From a virus, in IMG/VR virus record IMGVR_UViG_3300037116_000081, positions 1 to 64,000 of that record: a DNA stretch of 64,000 nucleotides, one strand, 5' to 3'. The first letter of the stretch is position 1. Each line of letters begins with the position of its first letter. The translations under genes were made by a program, and so were the position numbers. The notes beneath the pieces were generated by a model. The model had not been told where the DNA came from, did not search any database, and saw only the letters and a list, made by a program, of their open reading frames with translations. Below, in pieces: positions 12,437 through 39,279 of this stretch.

Positions 12437-12768
12437 GCTACATCCAATACACACCGAAAGCTCCACTCTCTACGTGCGTGACGAAGGTGCGTGGGATGGG
12501 GCAGGACGCGACTTCAACTTCGACGGACACCGTAACAGGGCTCTCGATTCCGAATCCGCTTACGATCTTCAGCAATCTTTTTTCATCGACCGACTTTTCA
12601 ACGTGGGGTATAGGTGAGTGGATCGTAATCGCGGGCGTCGGGTTTCTCGCGTTGAAACTCGTTACCGGTGTGCTCTCGGCAGGCAGCGCAGTAAAGAGCA
12701 CGGTTCGTAAGCGGCAGCGGCGAGCGAAGAAGCGGCAAGGGCTGCTGGACGATCTGAGGGATCTATGA
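12433..12768 (+). CDS. RGMGQ membrane protein with basic tail
   Basis: 111 residues from a TTG overlapping the previous stop, with GGAGGG six bases upstream. KVRGMGQDATS near residue 20; FSTWGIGEWIVIAG starts a membrane helix, then a strongly basic tail (RKRQRRAKKRQ). The tail would face the nucleic acid side. Its stop overlaps the mini-ORF start. Confidence 0.65.
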   Translation: MSYIQYTPKAPLSTCVTKVRGMGQDATSTSTDTVTGLSIPNPLTIFSNLFSSTDFSTWGIGEWIVIAGVGFLALKLVTGVLSAGSAVKSTVRKRQRRAKKRQGLLDDLRDL

Positions 12769-12842
12769 GACGACTGAGGGACACCCCGAAAGCTTCAACG
12801 CGCTGCTACTCCAGTGCAGCGCGAAACGGAGAATGTTCATGA
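12765..12842 (+). CDS. Mini-ORF spanning element E7
   Basis: 25 codons. Its ATG overlaps the stop of the gene before (ATGA) and its TGA overlaps the ATG of the gene after (ATGA), so it bridges the gap exactly while passing through E7. Confidence 0.55.
   Translation: MRRLRDTPKASTRCYSSAARNGECS
12799..12823. repeat. Palindromic junction element E7
   Basis: Stem CGCGCTGC/GCAGCGCG, reversed loop TACTCCAGT. Its downstream flank CGGAGAA supplies the SD for the gene at 12839. Confidence 0.88.
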
Positions 12843-13192
12843 GAGGATTCGGTAGCTACAGCAAAACTCCAACTCCATGGGGATGGGAATATTATCCCCC
12901 ACCGTACCGCTTTGCTTCACCGTCCACGGGGCCTAGCGGAATACGTCCGACTTACGCGAGCGCGCGATACATGGGCATGACAACACGAGCGTTGAGCAAC
13001 CAGGGCGGCGGGCTCGGATGTGCGGGGCAGTGCGGTTGCGGTGGGACGTGCGGCATGGGGCAAGTGGATCTTTCGTTTCTGACGAATACGTTCAGCTTGG
13101 CGGGCTACCAGATTCCGGTCTGGATTGGGCTCATGGTTGGGATCGGCGCGGTCGCAATGTACAGCGGGTTGAGCAATAAAAAGAGACGATGA
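12839..13192 (+). CDS. Tail-anchored protein with MRGFG and GMGQ motifs
   Basis: 117 residues; I chose the second ATG because the element's GGAG is 7 bases upstream. MRGFGSYS, an aromatic/Pro stretch, a Gly/Cys cluster (CAGQCGCGGTCGMGQ), DLSFLTN, then YQIPVWIGL with a membrane helix and KKRR end. DLSFLTN is shared with 10440-10727. Confidence 0.65.
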   Translation: MRGFGSYSKTPTPWGWEYYPPPYRFASPSTGPSGIRPTYASARYMGMTTRALSNQGGGLGCAGQCGCGGTCGMGQVDLSFLTNTFSLAGYQIPVWIGLMVGIGAVAMYSGLSNKKRR

Positions 13193-13434
13193 CTTTAACG
13201 CTTTCACAAACGGCGCAACCTCAGATTTTTACCGATATGGGCTCGTATGCCCACGTCGGAGTGGGATTCATGGCCGGGTATCTTTCACCTGGCTGGGCGC
13301 TCGCGATTGCGGCGGCGTTCATCGGGTATCAATTGTCTCAGGTTTCGGCGGGCGTGCCCTGGGGACGGACGGGCGGGGAAGTGATCGAGTTTGCGTTAGG
13401 AGCTGCTATAGCGGCGCTGGTGGCAAAAAAATGA
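13189..13434 (+). CDS. Small hydrophobic membrane protein
   Basis: 81 residues with two hydrophobic helices (about 20-48 and 64-80) and a KK end. In position it closes the anchored-protein array. Unknown; holin-like size but with structural neighbours. Confidence 0.6.
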   Translation: MTLTLSQTAQPQIFTDMGSYAHVGVGFMAGYLSPGWALAIAAAFIGYQLSQVSAGVPWGRTGGEVIEFALGAAIAALVAKK

Positions 13435-14369
13435 AGCGGCGAAAAACCAATTCAGCAAAGTACGGGCGGCGGAATTCAAGCGGCGATACATCAACGGATG
13501 TTCGCAGCCCAACTTCAACTGAAGTGCGAAGCCCTACCAAGACTTCGACTGAAGCTTATACGCAAGGAAACTTCACGGCCACAGTAACGGGCGGCGCAGG
13601 AGCCGGTGCAACTACCAGCGTGACAATCAAACCGAACCGGGGCAGGCGTGATGCTTTCGCGATTTGCAAACGCACGCGCGGGAATCCGTCACGGTGGAAT
13701 CCACTCGTGCCACTCGATCCAATCTCGGTACTTTCGGCGATCGAAGGGCAGCGCGAGAAGATCGCGAAGAAGCTGTTCACGAAGAACGCCAAGAAAGCGC
13801 GGAAGAATCGATTCGGCAAAAAGCGCGTAGTGCTGCACATGAAGCGCGGCAAGTCCGGGAAGTTTGCGCAGCGGAAGAACAGGGGCAATCCCGTCATGGC
13901 GGCAGAGAAGCGCTATCAATCCTTCCACGGCCGGCCTAGCGAAGACTTGGTTAACGTGCGGACCACGCTGCATTCGCATGACGTGCTCGCGGGCATCGGC
14001 GATCTCCGCAAGCTGAAAATCAAATCCGCAAACGGTCACTGGAAAGTAACAGTGAAATTCTTGAAGCCTTACCCGATTCTATCGATGAACGAAGCCGCAA
14101 CCCAGCTTTACATCGAAGGGGGTGATCAATCCGTAGACTTGAGGGACTTCGGAATCAAAACTCCACACGAAAAAGAAATACTCGGTCACGTCACGGACGT
14201 GTGGTACTTCACAACGAAAGATCACTTACGACCGGAAGACGGCGGCACGGCGATCTACCACCACAAATTCGGAAAGATCAAGCCGACGATGATTTACGAC
14301 GTACCGAACCAGCTACTCGAATTCGCGGGTGGCGGCTACACTATCCCGGATGAAGGGATCGACCAATGA
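13431..14369 (+). CDS. Basic protein with conserved C-terminal domain
   Basis: 312 residues. Residues 1-80 are low complexity with repeated RSPT; 80-155 are very basic (KKLFTKNAKKARKNRFGKKR); 155-312 form a folded domain (MAAEKRYQSFHGRPSEDLV, DVLAGIGDLRKLKIKS, TQLYIEGGDQSVDL). Probably binds DNA in the particle. Family not recognised. Confidence 0.6.
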   Translation: MKRRKTNSAKYGRRNSSGDTSTDVRSPTSTEVRSPTKTSTEAYTQGNFTATVTGGAGAGATTSVTIKPNRGRRDAFAICKRTRGNPSRWNPLVPLDPISVLSAIEGQREKIAKKLFTKNAKKARKNRFGKKRVVLHMKRGKSGKFAQRKNRGNPVMAAEKRYQSFHGRPSEDLVNVRTTLHSHDVLAGIGDLRKLKIKSANGHWKVTVKFLKPYPILSMNEAATQLYIEGGDQSVDLRDFGIKTPHEKEILGHVTDVWYFTTKDHLRPEDGGTAIYHHKFGKIKPTMIYDVPNQLLEFAGGGYTIPDEGIDQ

Positions 14370-14620
14370 AAAAGGCGCGCAAGAATATCAGCTTTAGAAA
14401 GTACAAAAAAGAGTTGAACCGCAAGCACTCTCCGGCGAACGCGAGACTCTATCAGTCATTCCGAAAAGAGGAGCAACGTATCGTGAGAGCGCGACGAAAG
14501 AAGGCGGCAAAATCCAATCCGCCAAAGACCCGCAAAGGCAAGACGGGACGCTGGATCAAAGCCAAAGCTGTGAAGGTGACACGAGTCAAAGGAAAGCTTG
14601 TAGTGCAGGTGAAACGGTGA
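14366..14620 (+). CDS. Small highly basic protein
   Basis: 84 residues, about one third Lys/Arg, with ARRKKAAKSNPPKTRKGKTG. Likely nucleic-acid binding, such as a core or packaging protein. ATGA and GTGA overlaps with its neighbours. Confidence 0.6.
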   Translation: MKKARKNISFRKYKKELNRKHSPANARLYQSFRKEEQRIVRARRKKAAKSNPPKTRKGKTGRWIKAKAVKVTRVKGKLVVQVKR

Positions 14621-15981
14621 GTATCGTATCCTTCATCCCGAAAGCCCTGCGCAAGGACAAGCCACCAGTCCCGATGATTAGTCTGTGTCAAACAACGGCG
14701 CGGCTACCGGACGGCTGGAGAGCGGCGGCACAAGCCTGGAAAGACGCGGCGGACAACCCCGGCGACATCGAGCACGTTATTGTAACGGACGATCCAGCCT
14801 TCAAGGCGGAGCCCATATTCGCGGATACGAAGATCGGCGTGAACAAGGGCCGGCATTCCGCGGTTGACGGCTGGAACACTTCAGCGCAACTCTCAACGGG
14901 AAAGTTCCTCATCACGCTTGCGGATGACTGGTTCCCCTGCCCTCACTGGGATACAGAATTTCTGAAGCTCATCCCGGATCTTGACGGCGAGTACGTTTTG
15001 GAAGTGGACACGGGAGGGAATCCCGGCCTGCTGACATTCTCGCTTCTGACTCGGAAGTATTACGAGCGCTACGGGTATTTTTTCTGGCCTCAGTATCTCG
15101 GCATGTACGCTGACAACGAATTCACGATTGTGGCGCGGCGTGACGGCGTGGTGATCGACGCGAAGCATTTATTCTGCGAACATCGGCACCCGCTCTACGG
15201 CTTCGGCGAGATGGACGAGACTCACAAGCATCAACACCGGCGCGAAGCCTTCGAGGTAGGCGAAGAGGTTTATCGGCGGCGGCTTTTGCATCTCGGGTTC
15301 GCCCAGCAGTATGTTCCGCCCCGCAGTTATTCGATCGCGATTTGTATGCCGGGTGAATCGTTCAAACCGGACTGGGTAGCCAACACTCTGAAGCTCACGA
15401 ACTACATTGCGGCGGAAGCGAGTGTTTTTCCGATGCCTGGCTACGCTCCAAATCCGCACATCGTTCGGCAGGGCATGTCAAGCGAAATCCAAAAGATAGA
15501 GCCGATGCCGGATCTGGTGTTGTGGATTGACCACGATAACCTGGTCGCCCCGATTCACTTCGCGCGGCTGTACGGGGTCCTGAAGGAACATCCGGAGATC
15601 GACGGCGTAGCAGGCTGGTGTTATTGGGGGCAAGAAGAAGGGCCACTCAACATCTCGTGTGGCGTTTATGGCGATGGGCGCCGGCATTATTTCAGCGAAG
15701 CCGAATTGCGGAACGGGCCGGAACTCAGGGAGATTGATTTCACCGGCTTCCCGTGCTTTCTGATGCGCGGCGAGACGCTGAAGAAAGCCGGCAAGAATGC
15801 TTTCGCGCCGATATCGGATGAAACTTTCCCGTACGGTTTCGTTCCGGAAGACCTCGCGTTTTGCAGACGGGCGAAAGAAGCGGGATGTAGGTTCATGGTG
15901 GACCGGACGGTTTACGTCCCCCATCGGAAGGTCCAAACGTTGGAGCCCAGGGAAGGGAATAAAAAGCTTTCAGTTGCGTAG
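14617..15981 (+). CDS. Tandem family-2-like glycosyltransferase
   Basis: 454 residues, GTG start. Two GT-A-like halves: residues about 15-220 (ISLCQTTARLPDGW, TLADDWFPCPHWD) and about 235-454 (YSIAICMPGESFK, DLVLWIDHDNLV, FVPEDLAFCRRAKEAGC). ADD and DHD are candidate metal/nucleotide sites. In phages such enzymes modify virion proteins, DNA or host surface sugars. The location among structural genes favours virion or surface glycosylation. Confidence 0.65.
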   Translation: MSIVSFIPKALRKDKPPVPMISLCQTTARLPDGWRAAAQAWKDAADNPGDIEHVIVTDDPAFKAEPIFADTKIGVNKGRHSAVDGWNTSAQLSTGKFLITLADDWFPCPHWDTEFLKLIPDLDGEYVLEVDTGGNPGLLTFSLLTRKYYERYGYFFWPQYLGMYADNEFTIVARRDGVVIDAKHLFCEHRHPLYGFGEMDETHKHQHRREAFEVGEEVYRRRLLHLGFAQQYVPPRSYSIAICMPGESFKPDWVANTLKLTNYIAAEASVFPMPGYAPNPHIVRQGMSSEIQKIEPMPDLVLWIDHDNLVAPIHFARLYGVLKEHPEIDGVAGWCYWGQEEGPLNISCGVYGDGRRHYFSEAELRNGPELREIDFTGFPCFLMRGETLKKAGKNAFAPISDETFPYGFVPEDLAFCRRAKEAGCRFMVDRTVYVPHRKVQTLEPREGNKKLSVA

Positions 15982-16021
15982 ATGCCCCGGTCAATCGGGA
16001 GCCCTAAAAGGAGAAAGTAGT

Positions 16022-16498
16022 ATGAAGACAAAACATCTCATCGGTTTTCTGGCGGCATTGCTAGTGCTCGCGTTCTTCAGTGTCGCCTTGGTTGTTCACG
16101 ATCAAATTTCCATCCGGACATTGGCCGTGTTTCTCGGATTCGCCTCTTTCGCGTTCGGAACCGTCACTGTGACGTATCAGGTCCCGATCCAAGGAACCAG
16201 CGCGCCCACTGCGGCACAGGTCTACGGGCTCGGACTAATCACGGCTCAAGTCAATAATGCCGACACGGACGCTTCCATCACGATCACGCATAACTTTGGT
16301 CTTGATGCAAACGAATTGGCGGCGCTCTACCCGTTTGTCATCATGAACCAGGATTCAGGCGGAACCACGTTGCCTGTCTACGAAGTTTCGAAGGCTACCA
16401 ACTCGGTGACGATCACGAAGGCGTCAACGTCCGGGACTGGTGGAACCTTCGACGTGTGTATCTGGCGCCCGCCGACGAATCAGAGGCCGCGCGTTTAA
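16022..16498 (+). CDS. Membrane-anchored beta-rich protein
   Basis: 158 residues with a strong SD (AAAGGAGAAAG). Two N-terminal hydrophobic helices (about 5-25 and 33-50), then a beta-rich domain (TVTVTYQVPIQGTSAP, DASITITHNFG, VYEVSKATNSVTITKAS). Likely a virion protein on a membrane. Confidence 0.6.
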   Translation: MKTKHLIGFLAALLVLAFFSVALVVHDQISIRTLAVFLGFASFAFGTVTVTYQVPIQGTSAPTAAQVYGLGLITAQVNNADTDASITITHNFGLDANELAALYPFVIMNQDSGGTTLPVYEVSKATNSVTITKASTSGTGGTFDVCIWRPPTNQRPRV

Positions 16499-16523
16499 GG
16501 CGGCCTGACGCAAGGGAAAACAC

Positions 16524-17390
16524 ATGGCGCAGACCACACGAGAAAGAATTATCGCAAACCGAGGGAAGCGGAAAATGTCTGCAAAGCAAATCCGCATCTT
16601 CGGCACGCGCGCGCAAAAGGCGCGGCTCCGCGGAACGCGGAAGCGCGCAAACTCTTCGCGGTCGAATCATCGCCGTCGATCGCGATCCAACAAGGGCGAG
16701 ATCATAGGTTACACGTTTGCTCAACCGGCAAGCAGAAAGAACAGAGGTAGGAAGATGGCAGCTACAAAGACAAAACGTAGACGCCGTGCCCGCTCCGGTG
16801 GGCATCGCGTTAACCGTCGTCGAAACACTGGGCGTCGGAGAAATTTCGTTCACCATCGCCGTCGCGGCACCATGCGGCGCATGAACCGCGGGCGTCGTCG
16901 GAATCCCGGCATGCTAGGAACGGGGCGAATCTCATCCATCGCGATCAATGCAGTATTCGTGATCGTCGGTGCGGTGGGCTCGAAGCTCCTGGCCCAAATG
17001 GTCCTCGGGACAAACAACACCGGCGTAGTCGGATACGCGGCGAATGCGATCGCGGGCGGCGCAATGTGGTTCGTGGCTGAAAAAGTCATGCACAACACAG
17101 ACGCAGCCAATGGCATCATCGCAGGTACCGCGGTCGAAATCATCCTTCGGTTGATTAACGACTACACGCCGTTCGGTTCCTACGTGGCGGGCCTCGGCAT
17201 GGGCGATTACCAGGCGCAAGCTTGGCTGACTCCCCAGGTCCTGGTTGACCCGTACAAAAACGCCAACATTCAGTGGCCTCAAGGGTTACTCTCGGCCGTA
17301 ACCCCGCCTCCCGCGGCAGTCATGCCGGCTTCGGTCGGCATTGCAAGCGGGATGGGGGATCTCTACGGCGGGAAGTCTTCGCTGTACTAA
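16524..17390 (+). CDS. Arg-rich DNA-binding membrane protein
   Basis: 288 residues. Residues 1-135 are extremely Arg-rich (RRRRARSGGHRVNRRRN, HHRRRGTMRRMNRGRRR). Residues about 140-215 hold two to three helices with Gly/Ala faces, then a Pro-rich end containing AGLGMGDYQ and ASGMGDLYGG, which resemble the operon's Gly-Met-Gly motif. An internal ATG at 16755 with upstream AGAGGTAGG could give a shorter product. It could tether the genome to a membrane or shell. Confidence 0.6.
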   Translation: MAQTTRERIIANRGKRKMSAKQIRIFGTRAQKARLRGTRKRANSSRSNHRRRSRSNKGEIIGYTFAQPASRKNRGRKMAATKTKRRRRARSGGHRVNRRRNTGRRRNFVHHRRRGTMRRMNRGRRRNPGMLGTGRISSIAINAVFVIVGAVGSKLLAQMVLGTNNTGVVGYAANAIAGGAMWFVAEKVMHNTDAANGIIAGTAVEIILRLINDYTPFGSYVAGLGMGDYQAQAWLTPQVLVDPYKNANIQWPQGLLSAVTPPPAAVMPASVGIASGMGDLYGGKSSLY

Positions 17391-17407
17391 AAAGTTGAAG
17401 TAAGCGG

Positions 17408-17440
17408 GCGCGGCTCTTAATCCAGCGGGAGGGGCCGCGC
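17408..17440 (+). terminator. GC-rich hairpin before the capsid-candidate gene
   Basis: Inverted repeat GCGCGGC/GCCGCGC in the 99-base gap after 17390. There is no U-run, so it may be an mRNA-stabilising or processing hairpin that sets apart a highly expressed gene. Confidence 0.35.
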
Positions 17441-17489
17441 GCGCAAAATCCCGCTGGGCAAAATCTTTACGAAAGAAGGAAAATTTCTC

Positions 17490-18173
17490 ATGGCATATGG
17501 CGCAAACGGCCAGATCCCAACTGCTGAAGAAGCTCAGGGCAGAAACACAAACTCGATCATGCAGGGCTTTGTTGATCGTGGCCCCTGGCAGTATTGGGAC
17601 GACATCTATTTCGCAAATGCGACGGTAGTTCCGCCGCAAATCCAAATCTTTCAAAACGCCATTGGGCAACAGAACCCCCAAGGCGCAGTAGGCGGTCCCA
17701 CCAACGGCGTGGCGAAAACCAAGCTCCAAACGAACTTGACTCGCCCCGCTTCGAGCGGGCTCCCGCCTCCCCGTTGTCTTTTGCTTCTGGCCATTGGGTT
17801 CGAGTTCTCCTCGAACTTCTTGAAGCCGGATATCGACGCGATTCTCAACTCCTGTTACATGGAGTTCCGCATCGACGACAAGATTTTCCACGAAGGGTGG
17901 CTCGTAACCTTTCCGGCCGGTGCGGGGCTCATGGGAGTCACGCAAAATTCGGGCGAGTCCGTGTACACGTGCGGATTCCCGGCTCCCCAGGCTCAACGGC
18001 GGTACGCTGACTGGGCCAAGTACATTGCTCCGCTTCAGCAGTTCTCCATGGTGCTGAATTTCGGCGGCGGCGGCGTGGCGGCCCCGACTATCGGAACCGG
18101 ATTGACGACCATCAACTATCCTGGCAACCTACGAGTTGTCTTGGATGGCTTGACAGATCGGTCGGTTCAGTAA
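17490..18173 (+). CDS. Candidate major capsid or shell protein
   Basis: 227 residues, SD AGAAGGAAA. Beta-rich throughout: IGFEFSSNFLKPDIDAIL, YMEFRIDDKIFHEGWLV, FPAGAGLMG, IAPLQQFSMVLNFGG, NLRVVLDGLTDRSVQ. Its own hairpin upstream and a terminator-like hairpin downstream suggest separate, high expression, as usual for a major structural protein. The pattern could fit a jelly-roll fold, but I recognise no specific family; confidence in the capsid role is low. Confidence 0.4.
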   Translation: MAYGANGQIPTAEEAQGRNTNSIMQGFVDRGPWQYWDDIYFANATVVPPQIQIFQNAIGQQNPQGAVGGPTNGVAKTKLQTNLTRPASSGLPPPRCLLLLAIGFEFSSNFLKPDIDAILNSCYMEFRIDDKIFHEGWLVTFPAGAGLMGVTQNSGESVYTCGFPAPQAQRRYADWAKYIAPLQQFSMVLNFGGGGVAAPTIGTGLTTINYPGNLRVVLDGLTDRSVQ

Positions 18174-18223
18174 CACACTAGGGCAACGGTTCAAGCGGTC
18201 GTACTCGAATCGCAAGAGAACCG

Positions 18224-18259
18224 GGGGCTGGTGGATCTTTCGCGGACCTCATCAGCCCC
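18224..18259 (+). terminator. Terminator-like hairpin after the capsid candidate
   Basis: GGGGCTGGTG pairs with CATCAGCCCC over a 16-base loop, followed within a few bases by a TTAAAAGTTTTATT stretch. Plausible intrinsic or partial terminator. Confidence 0.45.
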
Positions 18260-18285
18260 GCTCACTTAAAAGTTTTATTCGTCTT

Positions 18286-18307
18286 GCGCTGCTCTGGAAT
18301 GCAGCGC
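18286..18307. repeat. Palindromic junction element E8
   Basis: Stem GCGCTGC/GCAGCGC, loop TCTGGAAT. The flank GGAGAAAGG is the SD for the 53-residue gene at 18325. Confidence 0.85.
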
Positions 18308-18324
18308 GGAGAAAGGTCGATCAA

Positions 18325-18486
18325 ATGTGTGGATGCAACAGCGCTCTTACACCGCAATGGGGCGGGGTGTCTTTGCCGACCGATCCGATGGAGCGTGCCC
18401 GCTATGTAAGTGCGCTGCTAAAGGGATACACGCAACTCCAGATTGACGAAGATCCGATCCTGAAATATTTGCAGGTACACGGATGA
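18325..18486 (+). CDS. 53-residue hypothetical protein
   Basis: Starts MCGCNSALTPQWGG, where the cysteines could be lipidated or bind metal, then a helical segment (DPMERARYVSALLKG). Its SD comes from element E8 and its stop overlaps the start of the next mini-ORF, which supports a real gene. Confidence 0.55.
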   Translation: MCGCNSALTPQWGGVSLPTDPMERARYVSALLKGYTQLQIDEDPILKYLQVHG

Positions 18487-18548
18487 AACGAAATTCGAAT
18501 GCGCTGCTACTCCAGTGCAGCGCGAAACGGAAAATGGAGAGCGAGTAA
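18483..18548 (+). CDS. Mini-ORF spanning element E9
   Basis: 21 codons from an ATG overlapping the previous stop (ATGA) through E9 to a TAA overlapping the next ATG (TAATG). Confidence 0.55.
   Translation: MKRNSNALLLQCSAKRKMESE
18501..18523. repeat. Palindromic junction element E9
   Basis: Stem GCGCTGC/GCAGCGC, loop TACTCCAGT. Downstream GGAGAGCGAG is the SD for the gene at 18548. Confidence 0.88.
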
Positions 18549-19204
18549 TGTACGTCACTTCCGACATGGCATGTAACCAGCCGAACAGCGCTACTCCAAT
18601 GAGTCAAGCGCGGATCACGGCACAGAACAACCGTGTCGCGAGAGTCGGCAGTCAATTCGAAAACGGCAACGCAATCTTGAGCAACCTGGTTCAGAAACTC
18701 GGCGGGATAGGAATCGGGAACCCTCCGGGGACTTCACCACGAACCACTACCCCAACATTTGTGAATTCGCCGTCATGCTCAACCGCGGTACTCACTGGTG
18801 GCGGAATCTACGGCCGGCGTCTTCCGGTTCTTGGCGGACCAACTGGCCAGCCGATGTTGCAACCTGACGGGACGTGGGCACTCCCCGCGACTCCGGGCGC
18901 CCCTTCTCTCGCTACAGTGGGAGCCTCAACGAACGGCGCAAGTTTAGTAAGCACGGCTCCCGCGGTCCCTGCGGTTGCGAACGCGGCAACCATCGGATTA
19001 GAGAACAACGTCCCTGGTGGATCGAGCCCCGGAATAACTCCTACGACTTTAGGCGGCGGCGGACTATATGACGGAACGGGTTACTGCGCGGCAAACCGTC
19101 CGAGCATTCCAGCGCAACCGGGTGGGGCAGACGTCAATCCGATGTGGCTATTAGGTGGATTACTTTTCATCGTCGGCATAAGCGCAATGATGGGCAAAAA
19201 CTGA
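18548..19204 (+). CDS. Tail-anchored stalk-like virion-operon protein
   Basis: 218 residues. Helical N-terminus with MSQARITAQNNRVARVG, LGGIGIGNPPG near residue 57, long Thr/Pro/Gly/Ala region, then NPMWLLGGLLFIVG and an MMGKN end. It has the same end structure as the array at 9.6-13.2 kb, so is probably the same class of anchored protein. Confidence 0.6.
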   Translation: MYVTSDMACNQPNSATPMSQARITAQNNRVARVGSQFENGNAILSNLVQKLGGIGIGNPPGTSPRTTTPTFVNSPSCSTAVLTGGGIYGRRLPVLGGPTGQPMLQPDGTWALPATPGAPSLATVGASTNGASLVSTAPAVPAVANAATIGLENNVPGGSSPGITPTTLGGGGLYDGTGYCAANRPSIPAQPGGADVNPMWLLGGLLFIVGISAMMGKN

Positions 19205-23217: not shown

Positions 23218-23220
23218 ACC

Positions 23221-23721: not shown

Positions 23722-24584
23722 TGAAACGTTATCTTCTAGCGGCCGCTCTCGCCGTTTCTGCCTACGCACAGGTCCCCGCTCCGGATTGCATCGCCAGCTT
23801 CACTCTGAGCGCGGCGGGCTCCCAAACTGGCTTTGCGAACCAGGGCTGCATCTTTTGGAACATGACGTATCGAAACTTCGGTTTCACGGGGCTCTCTCTG
23901 ACTCTCCAGCAAGCTCCGGATGCGAACAACGCACCAGGTACGTGGAAGACTTTCGCGGGCACGGGCGAAGTGGGCTCGAATCCGTCAACGTCGATCACGG
24001 GCGCTTACTACACGATCATTGCATTGGATACCGATCTTGCGGCGTGGGTGCGAGTGACGCTCTCCGGACTAACAGGAACCGGCTTCGTTACCGGCTACGC
24101 CTTCGGGTACAAGACTTACCCCGGCGCGTCAGGCGGCGGTGGCGGCGGTGGCGGCTGTACATCTCCCTGCGTTGTCATTGGACCGGACGCTACGGGTGTG
24201 ACTCCTACTCAAGACCCGGTACAAATCGCGACTACGGACGGCTCCGGGAACGTGGTCCGTCCAATGTACTGCTCACTCAGTGCGCCGATCACGGTTACAG
24301 GGTCCGGGCTTACTCAGATCGTGGCGCTCAGTGGTGGACAGCAAATTGAGATTTGCAACATCTCCGTTTCCTTCGCGTCGGGCGTGGATTTCCAGCTCGA
24401 AACCGGCACAGGCTCAAATTGCGCGGGCGCGACTACCGCACTTACGGGCGTATACAAGACAGTGCTTACGGTCGCACTCGATTTCACCAGCGGCACACTG
24501 AACGGTGTTGTCTCTCAAGCCCTCTGCATCAACCTTGGCGCGGGCGTCACAGGCGGCGGCGTCGTAAACTACGGCCTGAGGTAA
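23721..24584 (+). CDS. Secreted beta-rich protein
   Basis: 287 residues. Signal peptide MKRYLLAAALAVSAYAQ with cleavage after AYA. Beta domain (FTLSAAGSQTGFANQG, TYRNFGFTGLSLTLQ), a Gly-rich hinge (about 142-150), then a second beta domain with paired cysteines. Probably exported; may be a spike or surface-exposed protein acting with the next gene. Confidence 0.6.
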   Translation: MKRYLLAAALAVSAYAQVPAPDCIASFTLSAAGSQTGFANQGCIFWNMTYRNFGFTGLSLTLQQAPDANNAPGTWKTFAGTGEVGSNPSTSITGAYYTIIALDTDLAAWVRVTLSGLTGTGFVTGYAFGYKTYPGASGGGGGGGGCTSPCVVIGPDATGVTPTQDPVQIATTDGSGNVVRPMYCSLSAPITVTGSGLTQIVALSGGQQIEICNISVSFASGVDFQLETGTGSNCAGATTALTGVYKTVLTVALDFTSGTLNGVVSQALCINLGAGVTGGGVVNYGLR

Positions 24585-24585
24585 A

Positions 24586-25986
24586 ATGCTAAATCTGAAA
24601 TCCAAGTGGGTTAAACTGTCTGCCGGTTTGATGGCCGGAGCTGCGCTTCTGTGGGCCTCAGGGATCGCGCCGCAAGCCTACAACCTGATCGTGGGCAACG
24701 GGACACCAGCCGGAAGAGGCAGCACGCTTAGCTTTCCAAACACGGCATCGGTGAGCTGGTCCTGTTCGACTACAGGCATTGTTACCACGTGCCTTGCGAC
24801 CGCATCCGGTGGCGGTGGAGGCAGCGGCGGGGGAATCGTCACGTATTCATCAGGCGCAGCATTGACGCCAGCCGGAACGCAATTCGTAGCTATCGGCGGC
24901 GGCGGGCAAGCATCCGCGACTGAATCTGACGTTGAGATCGGCGCTCCATCAGCCGCGACGATTAGCTCGATGTTTGTCAATCTCGACCTTCCTGCGGGAA
25001 CGGGTAATTCAATCGCGTTCATCTGGCGCAAGGCCGGGGCGGATCAAACTCTTACATGTACGATCTCCGGAGTTTCCGCGACGACCTGCAGCGACACGAC
25101 CCACAGCTTCACTGTGGCGCAGGGCGATTTGATCGACATCAAATTGGTTACGACAGGCACGGTCATTGTAGCTCCCGGCCTGACCATCGCGACGGCCTAC
25201 GGAGTCTCCGGATCGGCTGGGTATTTGACCATTCAGAATAACGGTACTCCACTCGCGCAAGAGCCGGTGTTGAATCTTACGGACGGCACGAACACGACGA
25301 TGGTCTGTGCCGACAATCCAGGTGTTGCAACAAACTGCCAAGTCAACGCATCGGGCGGAGGCGGTGGCACTTTCTCCGCTCTTCCGCCGTACTTGTATGA
25401 CGGCACTAATTATTTCGCGCCTTCCTCCGCAGTTGTCAAGCCTGTGCCGGGTAACTTCACATGGCAGAATCAAGGCGGTGCTACGAACACGACCACTGCG
25501 AACGGGGCGATCTATCTGCTAGGGACAAACGGGAGCCTTGACAACCGATTCTATGAAGAAGCTTGTCCGGGAAGCACCCCTTACACAATCACGGTTGCAT
25601 TCATGCCCCAATTAACGGCTAACACTTTCGCTTGGCTGGGTTTTGGATTCCGTGATCCCGTCGCCGGGAGACTTGAATATATGGCGCTGGAAGGCAACGG
25701 GGCTCAGATCGAAGTTGCTTTATGGGGCTCGATTGCGGGTTTTGCTGGACGAAGCGCTAACAGGTCAGTAGCAGCGGTTCCTTCTGTTCTGTGGTTTAGG
25801 GTGGGGAATGACGGTACAAATCTAACTTTTTCCTGGAGCGTAGACGGTATCAATTTCTTTCAAATACTGGCCGATCCAATCTCCGGCGGTTTTCTGAACG
25901 CCACTCCTACACAATGCGGGTTCTTCTTGGTTAACAACGATTCGAGCCCTGCAATCAGCGCGATGACAGTCTTGAGTGTCCAATGA
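24586..25986 (+). CDS. Secreted fibre-like protein with lectin-type C-terminus
   Basis: 466 residues. N-terminal hydrophobic segment (LSAGLMAGAALLWASG) as signal or anchor, two Gly-rich hinges (about 75-85 and 260-270) separating beta domains, and a C-terminal beta-sandwich (FAWLGFGFRDPVAGRLEYMA, LWFRVGNDGTNLTFSWSVDG, CGFFLVNN) of concanavalin-like appearance. A carbohydrate-binding fibre is likely. Confidence 0.55.
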   Translation: MLNLKSKWVKLSAGLMAGAALLWASGIAPQAYNLIVGNGTPAGRGSTLSFPNTASVSWSCSTTGIVTTCLATASGGGGGSGGGIVTYSSGAALTPAGTQFVAIGGGGQASATESDVEIGAPSAATISSMFVNLDLPAGTGNSIAFIWRKAGADQTLTCTISGVSATTCSDTTHSFTVAQGDLIDIKLVTTGTVIVAPGLTIATAYGVSGSAGYLTIQNNGTPLAQEPVLNLTDGTNTTMVCADNPGVATNCQVNASGGGGGTFSALPPYLYDGTNYFAPSSAVVKPVPGNFTWQNQGGATNTTTANGAIYLLGTNGSLDNRFYEEACPGSTPYTITVAFMPQLTANTFAWLGFGFRDPVAGRLEYMALEGNGAQIEVALWGSIAGFAGRSANRSVAAVPSVLWFRVGNDGTNLTFSWSVDGINFFQILADPISGGFLNATPTQCGFFLVNNDSSPAISAMTVLSVQ

Positions 25987-26162
25987 AAATGTTCCTTTCA
26001 AACAATCCTGACGTAGCCGAACTCTTAGGCGCTGGGCTCATCGCTCTGTTCTTCATGCTGGGCGACTACTACGCTTCACGTGTGGAAGGCGGGTACACGA
26101 TCGCGCGGTCAGTGGAAACGATTCGCGATATGTCGGCTTCAGTTCAAGAGGGCACACCATGA
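25983..26162 (+). CDS. 59-residue single-pass membrane protein
   Basis: One helix (ELLGAGLIALFFMLGDYY), then a short soluble tail. ATGA overlaps with the fibre gene before and the mini-ORF after. Opens the lysis region; function unknown. Confidence 0.55.
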   Translation: MKMFLSNNPDVAELLGAGLIALFFMLGDYYASRVEGGYTIARSVETIRDMSASVQEGTP

Positions 26163-26269
26163 AGTTGAGAGGCTGGATACTCATGGCTCTCTGGAGTGGT
26201 TTCTACAGAAGCATCTTGCGTTTTGTGCCGCACTGGAATTGCGGCACGGAGAAAGGTCGATCCGAATGA
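26159..26269 (+). CDS. Mini-ORF spanning element E10
   Basis: 36 codons: ATGA overlap with the gene before, passage through E10 (SILRFVPHWNCGTEKGR), and ATGA overlap with the holin-like gene after. The peptide shares the SILRFV-x-HW frame with other element mini-ORFs. Confidence 0.5.
   Translation: MKLRGWILMALWSGFYRSILRFVPHWNCGTEKGRSE
26225..26247. repeat. Palindromic junction element E10
   Basis: Stem GTGCCGC/GCGGCAC, loop ACTGGAATT. The flank GGAGAAAGG is the SD for the gene at 26266. Confidence 0.87.
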
Positions 26270-26520
26270 ACGATAATCCGCTAGGCCCATTGCAGGGCAC
26301 ATCGAGTCAGCAGTTCCACCTGAACACGCTGGATTTCCAGAAAGTCGGCCGCATGGTGCTAGTGCAGATCATCGGGCTCGGCCTGACGCTCGGGGTTCCG
26401 TGGTTGCTGAAGCTTTCCTACGTGTGGAAGGGCCACGATTACACGCCAGATGTCCTGATCGTGGTGAACTGCGTAGCTGAACTGGGGAGACGTTTTCTGA
26501 CCGGGGCACCGAAGACCTGA
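26266..26520 (+). CDS. Holin-like membrane protein, paralogue of 46593-46847
   Basis: 84 residues, about 80 percent identical to the minus-strand protein at 46593-46847. Two helices (VLVQIIGLGLTLGVPWLLKL and DVLIVVNCVAELGRRFL) with a charged N-terminus. Size, topology and the nearby muramidase suggest a holin; not proven. Confidence 0.55.
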   Translation: MNDNPLGPLQGTSSQQFHLNTLDFQKVGRMVLVQIIGLGLTLGVPWLLKLSYVWKGHDYTPDVLIVVNCVAELGRRFLTGAPKT

Positions 26521-26529
26521 AAGGAACCC

Positions 26530-26685
26530 ATGAAAGATATCATTCAACGAGTGCTGCTTGAACAGACGAACCTCTCGGACGCAAAGGCGGAGTATGTGGC
26601 ACGGGAAATCGTGAACGCGTTGGGGCCTTACGCGCGGAACGATGATATCGGCAGCAGAACCGAGTACGCGGAGTCCGCAACTTAA
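26530..26685 (+). CDS. 51-residue helical protein
   Basis: SD AAGGAAC. Helical (QRVLLEQTNLSDAKAEYVAREIVNAL is the main segment, here only partly quoted by position 5-30). No motif recognised; lies within the lysis region. Confidence 0.45.
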   Translation: MKDIIQRVLLEQTNLSDAKAEYVAREIVNALGPYARNDDIGSRTEYAESAT

Positions 26686-26697
26686 AAGTAGAGGCGT

Positions 26698-27105
26698 GTG
26701 TTAACCTTGATGTTGAATCCGTTCGCTGATTACCACTTCATCTTTGATATCATCTCTGGCGTTGCGGTTGTCGCGGGCTCCTACTTCGGGCTCATGATAA
26801 AGAACGCGCTCGGGGCCATCCGGCTAGAGCAGGCCAACGCGAAGTCCGAACTACTCTTACAGCAATCGCACACGAAAGCAGAACTACTCGCCCATCAGAA
26901 CGAAGTCAAAGAGGAAATGCTCGAACAGCATGACGTGGTTGTCGAAGGGCAGCACGATTTAAGGGCCGAGTTTGTGGATAAACACGCTGAAAACAAACAA
27001 TCTCTTGCGGTTCACCTCAATGACGATGACCGCCGATTTGAAGCCTTGAACACAGTGCTGGCGCGGATCGATAAGACGGTCGAGAAGATAGCCAACGGGC
27101 ACTGA
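26698..27105 (+). CDS. Membrane-anchored coiled-coil protein
   Basis: 135 residues (GTG; an ATG 12 bases later is possible). One N-terminal helix (IISGVAVVAGSYFGLMI), then a long coiled coil (about 35-130). Architecture matches lysis accessory proteins such as XhlA- or spanin-like factors. Confidence 0.5.
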   Translation: MLTLMLNPFADYHFIFDIISGVAVVAGSYFGLMIKNALGAIRLEQANAKSELLLQQSHTKAELLAHQNEVKEEMLEQHDVVVEGQHDLRAEFVDKHAENKQSLAVHLNDDDRRFEALNTVLARIDKTVEKIANGH

Positions 27106-27122
27106 CGACAGCCCAACCTTTG

Positions 27123-27147
27123 GGCGGGGATACTCCAGATCCCCGCC
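27123..27147. repeat. Palindromic junction element E11 (class B)
   Basis: Stem GGCGGGGA/TCCCCGCC; both arms changed together at the innermost pair relative to the class B consensus. Loop TACTCCAGA. After the stop at 27105. Confidence 0.83.
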
Positions 27148-27227
27148 GACACCTGACTGAGCACATTTGAACAGTATCAAAACCCCTGAACTGGGGTATA
27201 CTCCAATCTGAAGAGGAGAAAACGAAA

Positions 27228-27521
27228 ATGTCTACCAAGCCTGTTCCAGCAACGGATAAAAACGAGAAAACCATCTCGGTGAACGTGGAAGGAAAATCGC
27301 GCCAAGTCGTCATTCAGCGGCACGAAACCACCACACACATTCTCGATCGGCTGAACCTGAAGGGCTATCAGCTCTCCATGGGGCCGAGCACGCCACAGAA
27401 AACTAACGTGCTCAACGCCGGCGATATCGTTTTTGACAACGTAGTAGAAAACGAAGGGCTCGTCGCGACTGCGGTTCCGCCTGTCGGAAGACCTGCGCAA
27501 CCTCAGCCCGTCAAAAAGTAG
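27228..27521 (+). CDS. Small beta-grasp-like protein
   Basis: 97 residues, SD GAGGAG. KTISVNVEGKSRQVVIQRHE, THILDRLNLKGYQLSMGP and DIVFDNVVENEGLVATAV give a beta-beta-alpha-beta order compatible with a ubiquitin-like fold (similar in pattern to multiubiquitin domains). It ends QPVKK rather than Gly-Gly. Tentative. Confidence 0.45.
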   Translation: MSTKPVPATDKNEKTISVNVEGKSRQVVIQRHETTTHILDRLNLKGYQLSMGPSTPQKTNVLNAGDIVFDNVVENEGLVATAVPPVGRPAQPQPVKK

Positions 27522-27526
27522 GGACT

Positions 27527-27730
27527 ATGTTCCCTGCCTTTCTGATCCAGATTGTCATTTGCCTCATCATCGTGGGGCTCCTGCTGTACGTGGTCAACCT
27601 TCTGCCGATTGAGCCGAACATCAAGCAGATTATCCGGGTGGTGGTGATTGTGTTCGTTGTCATCTGGTTACTCTATGCTTTGATGGGTGCGGCTCCTATG
27701 GCTCCTATGAGTTTGCCCCTTAGACGTTGA
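27527..27730 (+). CDS. Two-helix membrane protein (Thivi_2564-like)
   Basis: 67 residues: FLIQIVICLIIVGLLLYVV, NLLPIEPNIKQIIRVVVIV and IWLLYALMG match the pattern of the small Thivi_2564-type membrane family. Possible second holin/antiholin of this lysis region. Confidence 0.5.
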   Translation: MFPAFLIQIVICLIIVGLLLYVVNLLPIEPNIKQIIRVVVIVFVVIWLLYALMGAAPMAPMSLPLRR

Positions 27731-27762
27731 ATCACAGCCGGCTTTAGGCGTATACTTCTGAC

Positions 27763-27819
27763 ATGAGCATCCTCCGTTTCGTGCGGCATTGGAGTAGCCG
27801 CACGGAGGGCTGTCGATGA
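27763..27819 (+). CDS. Mini-ORF spanning element E12
   Basis: 18 codons, MSILRFVRHWSSRTEGCR, ending in a TGA that overlaps the ATG of the methylase gene (ATGA). The peptide matches the mini-ORFs at E10, E14 and E16 in frame and sequence. Confidence 0.55.
   Translation: MSILRFVRHWSSRTEGCR
27780..27804. repeat. Palindromic junction element E12
   Basis: Stem CGTGCGGC/GCCGCACG, loop ATTGGAGTA. The flank CGGAGGG is the SD for the gene at 27816. Confidence 0.88.
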
Positions 27820-28232
27820 CACCGACCTTGCAGGCGCGATCTGTACACTTCAGCTCCTCATCAGACCGTTGGGCCACCCCGCGGGCCGTTTACGATGCGC
27901 TCGACGCGGAGTTTGCTTTTGATTTTGACCCATGCCCGTTAGATGGAAGCGCAGACGGCCTAGCCAGCCTGTTTACGGAGTGGCGTGGAAGGCGGGTATT
28001 CTGCAACCCTCCGTATGGCCCCGGCCTCGGAAAGTGGCTGGAACGTGGCCTAGAAGCCGAACTAGCAGTCTTCCTCGTCCCTGCCCGCACTGATACGCGC
28101 TGGTTCCATGACATCGTGCTACCAAAAGCGGTGGAGATACGATTCCTGAAGGGCCGCCTGACATTCGGAGATGCCGTCAACCCGGCCCCGTTTCCTAGTA
28201 TGGTAGTGATATTCCAGAGGGCAGGTCGATGA
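27816..28232 (+). CDS. dam: Phage-type Dam N6-adenine methyltransferase
   Basis: 138 residues. WATPRAVYDALDAEFAFDFDPCP and the catalytic FCNPPYGPGLGKW (NPPY) are typical of the small phage Dam family, with VEIRFLKGRLTFG downstream. Transfers a methyl group from SAM to adenine N6; in phages it protects DNA from restriction or marks it. Unusual place, inside the lysis cassette. Confidence 0.85.
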   Translation: MTPTLQARSVHFSSSSDRWATPRAVYDALDAEFAFDFDPCPLDGSADGLASLFTEWRGRRVFCNPPYGPGLGKWLERGLEAELAVFLVPARTDTRWFHDIVLPKAVEIRFLKGRLTFGDAVNPAPFPSMVVIFQRAGR

Positions 28233-28384
28233 CCCGGCTGCTACTCGCGGTGTGGTGGTCTGCCGCTGGTTGGATTGCCATGTGCGCGGGTGTTAGCTGG
28301 ATTCTTTTTAACGGTTGGTTGCGGAAGACAGTTCAAACTCTTGGGCGGGGCTACTCCAAGTGCCCCGCCGAAACCCCAAAGTAG
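28229..28384 (+). CDS. 51-residue membrane peptide with element-encoded end
   Basis: Begins MTRLLLAVWWSAAGWIAM, one or two helices; the last 15 residues (TLGRGYSKCPAETPK) come from element E13. ATGA overlap with the methylase gene. Possible small lysis or spanin partner. Confidence 0.5.
   Translation: MTRLLLAVWWSAAGWIAMCAGVSWILFNGWLRKTVQTLGRGYSKCPAETPK
28344..28369. repeat. Palindromic junction element E13 (class B)
   Basis: Stem GGCGGGGC/GCCCCGCC, loop TACTCCAAGT. Inside the 3' end of the gene at 28229-28384. Confidence 0.86.
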
Positions 28385-28387
28385 CGT

Positions 28388-28546
28388 ATGACACTACAGG
28401 TCTGTGACGTATGCCGATTAGTAGACGGAGACTTGTCAGTGAAGTTGTGCGACTGGTGCCAATCCTGTAAAGCGTGGATATGTCAGAAGGACTGGAATAA
28501 CTGGCCCCGGCGCTCGCTCGCGGCTATTCGGAGAATGAGACAATGA
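28388..28546 (+). CDS. 52-residue zinc-binding protein
   Basis: CDVC, CDWCQSC and a later Cys give a compact zinc site, followed by a Trp/Arg-rich end. Its stop overlaps the lysozyme start (ATGA). Function unknown. Confidence 0.5.
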   Translation: MTLQVCDVCRLVDGDLSVKLCDWCQSCKAWICQKDWNNWPRRSLAAIRRMRQ

Positions 28547-29163
28547 ACCCCCTCGGCACACCAGCTTACTTACCAGGCATCGACGTTTCGCACTTCCAGG
28601 GAGTCATAGACTGGCAGCGCGTGAAAGCGGCGGGCATCGGATTCGCATTTATCAAGGCGACGGATGGGACAGGCTTTGTGGACCCGCAACTGAACTACAA
28701 TGCTCTTGCTTGCCAAGCGCTGAGTATCCCGTTCGGGCTTTACCATTTCTTCCGGCCCACCGCGGACTCTGCGTCACAGGCTCAGTTTTTCCTGGCCAAC
28801 ACCAAGCCCTATACCCCGTTGCTTCCGCCTGCGCTTGATCTGGAACTCGGCCCGGTGACAACGAGTCAAGCGGCTACATGGCTCGACATCGTAGACGTGG
28901 CGCTTGGCCGCGAATCTCTGGTGTACACTGCCCCGGCTTTCGCGGCCGAGAATTTTAACGGCGAAAACTCAGGACTGATCAGCGTCTATCCCCTCTGGAT
29001 TGCAGAGTACACAACCAAACCTGCCCCAACTGTGCCGGCCGCGTGGGAAGATTGGGAATTCTGGCAGCACACCCCGAGTGGACAAGTTGACGGAGTACCG
29101 AATGCAGTAGACTTAGATTGGTTCCATGGAACAGCCGACGATTTAAGGGCATGGGTGAAATGA
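28543..29163 (+). CDS. GH25 muramidase (endolysin)
   Basis: 206 residues. GIDVSHFQGVIDWQRVKAAG, GFAFIKATDGTGFVDPQLNYN, FGLYHFFRP, PALDLELG, LWIAEYTTKPAP and FWQHTPSGQVDG are the landmarks of GH25 lysozymes; the DxE in PALDLELG is catalytic. It cleaves the glycan strands of peptidoglycan at lysis. No cell-wall-binding domain. Distinct from the GH24 enzyme at 43250. Confidence 0.9.
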   Translation: MNPLGTPAYLPGIDVSHFQGVIDWQRVKAAGIGFAFIKATDGTGFVDPQLNYNALACQALSIPFGLYHFFRPTADSASQAQFFLANTKPYTPLLPPALDLELGPVTTSQAATWLDIVDVALGRESLVYTAPAFAAENFNGENSGLISVYPLWIAEYTTKPAPTVPAAWEDWEFWQHTPSGQVDGVPNAVDLDWFHGTADDLRAWVK

Positions 29164-29222
29164 CCGCGAGCATTTTGCGTTTCGTTTTGCACTGGGGTAG
29201 CAGGACGCTGGGAGATCGATGA
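29160..29222 (+). CDS. Mini-ORF spanning element E14
   Basis: 20 codons, beginning MTASILRFVLHWGSRT; its start overlaps the lysozyme stop (ATGA) and its TGA abuts the next ATG. Confidence 0.55.
   Translation: MTASILRFVLHWGSRTLGDR
29183..29207. repeat. Palindromic junction element E14
   Basis: Stem CGTTTTGC/GCAGGACG with G-U pairs, loop ACTGGGGTA. The flank GGGAGA provides an SD. Confidence 0.83.
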
Positions 29223-29600
29223 ATGGCGACTAAGCGTAAACAAGTTCGACCCACGAAAGGGGAACCCGCTCAACCGTCTCCCGCTGGTTTTGAAGCATGG
29301 GCTATTATCGAAATCTTTGGCCACCAGAAATACGCGGGCAAGGTTTCGGAGTTCGCAATCGGCGGGTGTAATTTCGTGCGCGTCGATGTTCCCGAGCTGC
29401 CCACGCGCCGTCCACAGGAACCGGCCATGCCCGCGTTTACCAAGCTCTTTGGAAACGGAGCCGTGTATTCGATCACGCTTGTATCTGAGGACGTGGCCCG
29501 CGCGGTCGCTGCGACGATCCGGCCAGAGCCGCTCAACGTTTACATCCCGATAATCCCTGACCGCCAGTTGCGCTCCGGAGACGAGGACGGATTTCAGTGA
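29223..29600 (+). CDS. Acidic-tail protein, inverted paralogue of 33789-34175
   Basis: 125 residues, about 85 percent identical to the minus-strand protein at 33789-34175. Core FEAWAIIEIFGHQKYAGKVS, EFAIGGCNFVRVDVPELP, AVYSITLVSEDVARAVAA, then an acidic end (SGDEDGFQ). This sequence is often found in phages as a small conserved protein of unknown role; the two copies here imply separate use in each gene block. Confidence 0.65.
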   Translation: MATKRKQVRPTKGEPAQPSPAGFEAWAIIEIFGHQKYAGKVSEFAIGGCNFVRVDVPELPTRRPQEPAMPAFTKLFGNGAVYSITLVSEDVARAVAATIRPEPLNVYIPIIPDRQLRSGDEDGFQ

Positions 29601-29668
29601 TGTCGCCGACCGTTCGGAATCTTGGGCAGGGCTACTTCAGTGCCCTGCCGACAGCCCCTGGAACCTGA
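29600..29668 (+). CDS. Mini-ORF spanning element E15
   Basis: 22 codons with NLGQGYFSALPTAPGT; the ATG overlaps the previous stop (TGATG). The mini-ORF at E20 encodes PLGQGYSSALPITPGN, so the class B frame is conserved too. Confidence 0.5.
   Translation: MSPTVRNLGQGYFSALPTAPGT
29625..29649. repeat. Palindromic junction element E15 (class B)
   Basis: Stem GGCAGGGC/GCCCTGCC, loop TACTTCAGT. Confidence 0.86.
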
Positions 29669-29676
29669 AAAGATTC

Positions 29677-30210
29677 GTGTACCTCTACTACCAACCCCGG
29701 CGAAGAAGAGGCTTCGGTGATCTCTCAACCGTTGCGGCCGCGATTCAGCAAATTGAAGGTTGGGCGCCCGGTACACGATCTTACCGCAATAACAATCCTG
29801 GGAACCTGATGTACGCGGGGCAACCCGGCGCGACTGGCCAAGATCCTCAAGGCTTCGCAATCTTTCCGGATTATCAAACCGGGCTCACGGCGCTCGACAA
29901 TCAAATCACACTCGACGCTTCGCGCGGCCAGACCATTTCGCAGTTCACGTCCATCTATGCCCCGGCGTCAGACGGAAATAACCCCACGTCGTATGCGGCG
30001 CAAATAGCTTCAGCGGCCGGCCTCTCACCTTCAGACTCACTTTCAGCAGCAATCGCGGGCTCCAGCTCGGCGCCCGACGTTTCAAGCGGTATGGATCTCT
30101 CATCGCTGTTTCCGTCGCTCAGCCTTCCGTCAATCGACTTCACGGACCCGACGACAATTGCCGTAACGGTGGGGATCGGCCTGGCGCTGGCGTGGGCACT
30201 GAATGCGTAA
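29677..30210 (+). CDS. Lysozyme-like virion protein with tail anchor
   Basis: 177 residues, GTG start. The N-terminus RRRRGFGDLST resembles the operon's Gly-motif; residues 15-110 (AIQQIEGWAPGTRSYRNNNP, GNLMYAG, FAIFPDYQTGLTALDNQI) resemble phage lysozyme/transglycosylase-like domains with the NNNPGNL signature; a Ser-rich linker and a C-terminal helix (TIAVTVGIGLALAWALNA). Probably a virion-bound peptidoglycan hydrolase for entry. Confidence 0.65.
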   Translation: MYLYYQPRRRRGFGDLSTVAAAIQQIEGWAPGTRSYRNNNPGNLMYAGQPGATGQDPQGFAIFPDYQTGLTALDNQITLDASRGQTISQFTSIYAPASDGNNPTSYAAQIASAAGLSPSDSLSAAIAGSSSAPDVSSGMDLSSLFPSLSLPSIDFTDPTTIAVTVGIGLALAWALNA

Positions 30211-30271
30211 CTCTTTTCGTTTTGTGCTGCCCTGGAGTAGCAGCACGGAGAATGGTCGGCAAAGGGGGTGA
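30203..30271 (+). CDS. Mini-ORF spanning element E16
   Basis: 22 codons, beginning MRNSFRFVLPWSSSTENG; it starts inside the end of the gene before and its TGA overlaps the next ATG (TGATG). Confidence 0.5.
   Translation: MRNSFRFVLPWSSSTENGRQRG
30224..30246. repeat. Palindromic junction element E16
   Basis: Stem GTGCTGC/GCAGCAC, loop CCTGGAGTA. Confidence 0.86.
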
Positions 30272-33330: not shown

Positions 33331-33375
33331 TCAGGGCGCTGCATTCCAGAGCAGCGCGAGACGCAGAAAAATCAT
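33331..33375 (-). CDS. Mini-ORF spanning element E19
   Basis: 14 codons, MIFLRLALLWNAAP, starting on the stop of the DUF192 gene (ATGA). Same reading frame through the element as the rightward SILRFV-x-HW peptides. Confidence 0.5.
   Translation of the reverse strand: MIFLRLALLWNAAP
33336..33357. repeat. Palindromic junction element E19
   Basis: Stem GCGCTGC/GCAGCGC, loop ATTCCAGA, downstream of the DUF192 gene. Confidence 0.83.
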
Positions 33376-39246: not shown

Positions 39247-39271
39247 CGCGCTGAACTGGGATTTTAGCGCG
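39247..39271. repeat. Palindromic junction element E29
   Basis: Stem CGCGCTGAA with a mismatched TTTAGCGCG arm, loop CTGGGAT. Just after the stop at 39280. Confidence 0.8.
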
Positions 39272-39279
39272 TTGAGCTT

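Follow-up and report, generated by a model that had tools for sequence, protein, structure and literature searches.

REP/BIME elements are dispersed, GC-rich intergenic palindromes, often alternating in orientation and mobilised by RAYT transposases. The PeSLs of T4-type phages, stem-loops of another kind, are reportedly the subject of Arbiol 2010 and Comeau 2014. In the passages of the literature relied upon here, PeSLs appear as stem-loop modules scattered between genes and believed to bring about gene shuffling among related phages (PMC4503421), and the SAS/ESAS of cluster K mycobacteriophages as elements of unknown function for which a role in translation initiation has been suggested (PMC3203893, PMC12699233). 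The present work concerns a family of short hairpins in a window of 64,000 nucleotides, i.e., bases 1-64000 of an 85,924-bp IMG/VR virus record (IMGVR_UViG_3300037116_000081, hereafter G000), and the small open reading frames (ORFs), called mini-ORFs, which thread some of these hairpins and join the stop codon of one gene to the start codon of the next. These mini-ORFs are genuine and non-random, and their role, as far as can be judged from sequence, is most likely termination-reinitiation of translation across the hairpins.

The window holds 31 hairpins, between bases 341 and 41473, with a near-perfect stem of 8 bp, often 9, and a loop core ACTCCAG varying little. Two classes, A and S, are one palindrome in opposite orientations. 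Read in the direction of transcription, the loop is TACTCCAGT or AACCCCAGT in S copies and the complement of this in A copies; in the latter, GGAG adjoins the stem or follows shortly after it, and a nearby start codon, if there is one, comes 11-23 nt behind. As for the SAS/ESAS described in those passages, many genomic copies precede the starts of some genes, with inverted repeats beside a ribosome-binding motif; unlike SAS/ESAS, the present element is a short-loop hairpin of other sequence that occurs in either orientation, flanks gene cassettes on both sides, is also present in the structural block and has bridging mini-ORFs. The 13-bp SAS sequence GGGATAGGAGCCC gave 2 window matches at up to 2 mismatches against 1.32 by chance, and ESAS, given there as 17-bp imperfect inverted repeats with a 4-13 nt spacer directly upstream of SAS, differ from the 8-9 bp near-perfect stems and ACTCCAG loop found here. 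With T4 PeSLs, the hairpins share a dispersed intergenic location and the exchange or duplication of non-core genes at element edges, from which they depart by the lack of a T run, both orientations, hairpins at both cassette ends and traversing mini-ORFs. The joined early promoter and terminator stem-loop of T4 PeSLs were not recovered, none of the hairpins being among the terminator-like sites of 12500-32000 and promoter-like motifs being seen, by eye, behind only some S elements. Like REP/BIME, these are dispersed palindromes at intergenic sites with near-alternating orientation, but the Y1_Tnp transposase of REP/RAYT systems was found in 0/6 phage records. A tyrosine integrase (PF00589), such as is encoded with integron attC cassette arrays, is absent from G000, G007, G001 and G015; PF00589 is present in G013 and G016. 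The ATGA or TAATG overlaps at both mini-ORF ends are an arrangement which, in the passages cited, supports reinitiation (PMC10666635, PMC12548453); unlike known coupling, two consecutive overlaps are here joined by an ORF of 18-37 codons across a palindrome, and a mini-ORF that spans a palindrome in this way was not encountered in the open-licence papers searched.

Overlaps at both ends of a mini-ORF had been deemed unlikely by chance in an earlier, sequence-only reading of this DNA, and two controls bear this out. Same-strand neighbour genes of G000, G007 and G001 separated by 30-140 nt have a bridging ORF in 5/16 gaps with an element vs. 0/39 without (Fisher p = 0.0013), all five lying in G000. 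The second control considers whether the left start is still joined to the right stop once one or two bases are added in the loop: in G000 and G007 (58 elements), the true frame keeps this join at 6 vs. 1 and 1 in the shifted frames, and in seven phage records (83 elements), at 11 vs. 1 and 2 (p = 0.0007, one-third expectation), the gene-direction vote being almost even at one of these 11 bridges (G013 39768). With a stricter upstream gene (35 or 45 aa), the counts are 9 vs. 1 and 2 (p = 0.0039), and with GTG starts counted, 12 vs. 5 and 4 (p = 0.02). Upstream genes that cross elements to end on a start were considered likewise and set aside as not clearly frame-specific (6 vs. 0 and 3; up to 10 vs. 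3 and 9 under looser limits). Two G001 bridges, of 31 and 32 codons, and a G013 bridge of 27 codons differ in register and length from those of G000, G007 and G016, which argues for separate origins; as the bridge is kept while peptide and register differ among phages, a hand-over device fits better than a product.

The mini-ORFs and hairpins are given below by window position, the E-numbers being those of the sequence-only reading, decoded by position, and mini-ORF coordinates including the stop codon.

5385..5441, minus strand: E4 mini-ORF, 18 codons, GTG start; GTGA at the left, downstream overlap absent
12765..12842, plus strand: E7 mini-ORF, 25 codons (MRRLRDTPKASTRCYSSAARNGECS); ATGA at both ends
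12799..12823, plus strand: E7 hairpin, S orientation, mRNA-strand loop TACTCCAGT
18285..18308, minus strand: E8 hairpin, A orientation, mRNA loop TCTGGAAT, followed by the start of a 53-aa gene; without a bridging mini-ORF
18483..18548, plus strand: E9 mini-ORF, 21 codons; ATGA at the left, TAATG at the right
18500..18524, plus strand: E9 hairpin, S orientation
26159..26269, plus strand: E10 mini-ORF, 36 codons; ATGA at both ends
26224..26248, minus strand: E10 hairpin, A orientation
27763..27819, plus strand: E12 mini-ORF, 18 codons (MSILRFVRHWSSRTEGCR); starts 32 nt beyond the upstream stop and ends as ATGA with the Dam methylase gene
27780..27804, minus strand: E12 hairpin, A orientation
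29160..29222, plus strand: E14 mini-ORF, 20 codons; ATGA at the left, TGA abutting the next ATG (29223)
29183..29207, minus strand: E14 hairpin, A orientation, with two G-U pairs when read as mRNA
29600..29668, plus strand: E15 mini-ORF, 22 codons; TGATG at the left, downstream overlap absent
29625..29649, plus strand: E15 hairpin, type II S, stem GGCAGGGC
30203..30271, plus strand: E16 mini-ORF, 22 codons; begins 5 nt ahead of the upstream stop, TGATG with a 35-aa gene
30223..30247, minus strand: E16 hairpin, A orientation
33331..33375, minus strand: E19 mini-ORF, 14 codons; ATGA at the left only
33721..33792, minus strand: E20 mini-ORF, 23 codons, GTG start; GTGA at the left only
40444..40506, minus strand: mini-ORF at hairpin 40462, absent from the sequence-only reading, 20 codons (MRSSIRFVLHWSSSTLGGLA); its ATG lies 8 nt ahead of the upstream stop, and its right end is an ATGA

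All ten elements singled out in that reading (E4, E7, E9, E10, E12, E14, E15, E16, E19, and E20) are indeed threaded by an ORF of 14-36 codons, with the lengths it gave. As it had noted for most cases, the ORF starts on the upstream stop at eight of the ten (ATGA at E7, E9, E10, E14, and E19; GTGA at E4 and E20; TGATG at E15), not at E12 and E16, and it ends on or against the downstream start at all six for which this was claimed (E7, E9, E10, E12, E14, and E16), not at E4, E15, E19, and E20. A -4 or -1 stop/start overlap is observed at both ends at E7, E9, and E10, and at the left end at E14, the right end of which abuts. Strict bridges, i.e., from ATG and at both ends, thus number 4 among the 31 window elements (E7, E9, E10, and E14), with 40462 as a near-bridge. 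A longer reading frame passes through some of the others, e.g., 341, 36121, 37268, 39988, and 41449, and 38219 and 38428 lie inside a gene; at the remaining ones, no translated frame through the element was identified. Frames upstream of S elements often read through in one register, with QRAATPVQRETQDA-like tails, in G000, G007, G001, G013, G015, and G016, a shared register which may have been inherited together with the element.

Relatives and paralogues offer natural comparisons at individual sites. At E7, G007 displays the empty site, where the two genes overlap directly as ATGA. At E10, the paralogue of the downstream gene (46593-46847, minus strand) is without an element, and its GTG start overlaps the stop of the preceding gene directly (GTGA). 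The G007 orthologue of the E12 mini-ORF, MNILRFASHWSSDAEGGR, has the same 18 codons and the same end; at E19, a 14-codon ORF runs from ATGA in both G000 and G007; at E9, the ORF of G007 has 25 codons, in the same frame and with the same TAATG end. At E16, G007 lacks both the A element at 30223 and the 35-aa gene.

From the arrangement of the flanking genes, the hairpins are best read as cassette boundaries, their edges coinciding with the ends of duplicated or exchanged genes. A complete unit, consisting of an A hairpin, a 125-aa gene and a type II S hairpin, occurs twice, at 29165-29669 (plus strand) and 33720-34234 (minus strand); the two copies share 80% nucleotide identity, with homology ending at both hairpins, their proteins are 84.8% identical (BLASTP), and the second copy sits in the opposite-strand gene block. 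The block 39247..40502 (minus strand), running from an A hairpin (40462) to an S hairpin (39247), separates two genes at 39061-40621, the paralogues of which stand next to each other at 51971-52368, parted by half an S element. Between G000 and G007, the genes of the A-S intervals 27780-28344 and 29183-29625 have no BLASTP match; in the interval 18285-18500, G007 is without any ORF of at least 30 aa; in the interval 36330-36121, the match covers just 18 residues, in the S-element-encoded stretch; in the interval 33335-32778, two genes are common to both, beside G007-only genes; and at 2355, where a lone S is found in G000, the G007 sequence runs A, two genes, S. Over the first 42.5 kb, 10/31 ends of self-homology are at most 25 nt from an element vs. 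1.7 expected (p = 0.00025); where both copies include the element, this count in part repeats the fact that the unit ends with it. The way in which cassettes would move is inferred. In G007, a cassette behind an A element (L030, 16279-18222) has two ORFs that look, by motif, like HNH endonucleases. Elsewhere in G000, paralogous segments at 72-95% nucleotide identity are 1-2000 with 41365-43200 and 34439-35643 with 44626-45849; a 46-bp unit stands in three perfect tandem copies at 49139-49276, and a 62-bp inverted repeat (31417-31478 and 31950-32011) lies where the plus- and minus-strand gene blocks meet.

For a comparison of the stems themselves, 51 copies taken from five phage records were aligned; two-sided changes number 83 vs. 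25.8 in shuffled alignments and affect all nine pairs; 91% of cells pair, and one-sided changes are almost absent. On the mRNA strand, 82 hairpins comprise 11 G-U pairs, 9 of them at the closing pair, and 3 A-C pairs, and most RNA families are not so poor in G-U inside their stems. As stems covary with few G-U pairs and almost no one-sided changes, this suggests a palindrome kept at the DNA level rather than an RNA structure, perhaps by template switching. The elements edge exchanged or duplicated cassettes, and their behaviour is that of DNA palindromes, so that coupling is unlikely to be their sole role, or their first. The two orientations nearly alternate along G000, with 24/28 A/S transitions vs. 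15.0 shuffled (p = 0.0002). The window has 0 matches to Rfam families at gathering score. As intrinsic terminators, the hairpins were rejected, the stems being followed by no T run but by AAACGG-like or GGAG-like sequence, and no element figuring among the terminator-like sites of 12500-32000. One A element is partly duplicated in tandem at 36276-36354, with a breakpoint within the loop. By eye, a promoter-like motif GTACTT..GGTCTTGAC, with about 17 nt and a TATAAT-like part, recurs, often behind S elements, at about 3380 on the minus strand, 257-320, 509-566, 41365-41430, and after 30402-30426; a consensus promoter scan of 12500-32000 gave fewer promoter-like hits than in shuffles.

The window phage is novel and one of a soil phage group. 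G000 encodes an endolysin and a Dam-like methylase, with a weak tape-measure match, and its window genes lie on the plus strand from about 7.6 to 31.9 kb and on the minus strand elsewhere. None of 50,697 phage records holds a near relative of 17000-29000. With the capsid-sized gene 17490-18173 as query, eight loci were obtained, among the fetched stretches of which a scan found the hairpin family only in G007 (IMGVR_UViG_3300050821_008300); the exact loop motif occurs in 2/9 whole records checked, namely G001 and G007, and core-motif scans extended the family to G011, G013, G015, G016, and G017. A bacterial copy of the family was considered and rejected, the 84 lone, scattered core matches in bacterial genome contigs, at most one per stretch, being judged at chance level. 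In G013, a 106-kb phage (L141-L146), the copies, at least 15 in number, are diverged; among them are other loops and stems whose last pair is mismatched, and TCCCCAA and AGACG flank many of the copies. In records other than G000 and G007, gene direction was set by a vote of long ORFs. Weak-stem or odd hits were removed before counting in G000 (26492, 31820, 51209, 58691, and 77653) and G007 (1781, 3995, 4182, 23305, 34800, and 38250), a degenerate copy near 38650 was left uncounted, and the set of 83 elements excludes G001 18946 and 19684, G016 43492, and the single G017 hit (a near copy of a G001 hit). Other G001 hits failed a later scan, of which 5355, 9471, and 29092 are perfect stems and probably true elements missing from the 83.

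The explanation that best accounts for these observations, which we regard as about evenly poised between right and wrong, combines cassette-boundary palindromes with mini-ORF bridges keeping them transparent to translation. The elements would be palindromes marking the boundaries of gene cassettes that soil phages of this group can exchange, a typical cassette reading, in the mRNA sense, as A hairpin, accessory gene or genes, and S hairpin. Where an element comes to lie between genes translated in succession, selection would keep a frame through it, either with the upstream gene running on or with a mini-ORF leading from the upstream stop to the downstream start; in the latter case, a ribosome finishing the upstream gene would reinitiate on the mini-ORF, traverse the hairpin, terminate at ATGA or TAATG and reinitiate on the downstream gene. 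In Escherichia coli, according to the passages cited, a stop-to-start distance of 38 nt lowers reinitiation by 80-90% for two gene pairs and abolishes it for a third (PMC10666635), so that an unbridged insert of 50-70 nt should uncouple neighbouring genes.

Bridges could instead be by-products of insertion, an element landing on an ATGA overlap and duplicating it with no selection for translation. The E7 flanks, ATGAGACGACT at the left and ATGAGAGGATT at the right, both resemble the G007 start ATGAGGGGACT, and the A-class consensus itself reads ATGAGC...GGTCGATGA; duplication alone, though, fixes no frame, yet the true frame predominates in the frame-shift control, the G001 and G013 bridges, of other lengths and register, are likewise in frame, and E9 and E14 end as TAATG and TGAATG rather than ATGA, which leaves this origin unlikely in our view. 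The sequence-only reading saw in the hairpin an mRNA control element that blocks the downstream Shine-Dalgarno (SD) sequence until mini-ORF translation unfolds it, and RNA unfolding is an established coupling model in the passages cited (PMC12548453). In A elements, the stem ends at or just before GGAG, placing the SD directly 3' of it, and 11/14 non-Watson-Crick pairs (G-U or A-C kind) are G-U on the mRNA strand. The predicted unpaired probability of the SD is nevertheless not clearly below that of ordinary genes, at 0.20 for five A-class sites vs. 0.32 ± 0.21 for 30 controls, and removal of the 5' arm of the hairpin does not restore it (only 0.26), these five sites with a scan-found SD being few and weak evidence either way; moreover, both loop orientations are found on mRNA and G-U pairs are rare within the stem. 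An extended helix hiding the SD was likewise rejected, as the consensus fold is the core stem alone and the accessibility comparison lent it no support. Of the coupling device previously proposed, an enriched, phase-specific ORF coupling at both ends is retained, and the hairpin hiding the downstream SD, unsupported by folding, appears improbable.

A third possibility is that the product matters, the mini-ORFs being functional micropeptides and the S elements providing C-terminal tails to upstream proteins. The A elements of G000, G007, and G016 are read in one register (ILRFVLHWSSSTEGGR-like), as are many S elements over six phage records; that common register could, though, be inherited with the element, stem changes often fall at second codon positions and alter residues, the G001 and G013 bridges are in another register, and the orthologous gene spanning 38219 (G007 30146) has a differing register. 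Because register and peptide differ among phages, the micropeptide was not adopted as the principal explanation and seems very unlikely.

Some observations weigh against bridged cassette boundaries themselves. A strict bridging mini-ORF is absent at 27 of the 31 window elements (26 counting 40462), and the statement in the sequence-only reading that a mini-ORF threads each element was overstated, with four strict bridges and one near. The p-values are optimistic, because element copies share descent and counts are not independent, and gene calls come from our own simple codon-usage script. The recombinase families PF01797, PF00589, and PF00239 were found in neither G000 nor G007, in the latter of which A/S alternation is weaker (17/24 vs. 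12.9, p = 0.056). The E14 bridge is absent from the G007 orthologue; across the relatives compared, a bridge is kept often, not always. At E9, six element-free relatives have no ORF ending within 3 nt of the start of the downstream gene, from which it follows that coupling at this site is not ancestral, and E9 as a restored ancestral overlap is ruled out.

Phage gene blocks are densely stop/start-overlapped, yet accessory genes come and go, and a boundary insert of 50-70 nt should break the coupling of its neighbours; a boundary element carrying its own translational bridge would solve this problem. We tentatively propose, as a possibility short of an even chance, that these are translation-transparent palindromes, in which a DNA hairpin delimits mobile cassettes and carries or evolves an in-frame mini-gene overlapping its neighbours at both ends. 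If so, cassettes would insert, swap or drop out of overlapping phage operons with translational coupling intact, and the mini-ORFs would be valuable for being read, not for their product.

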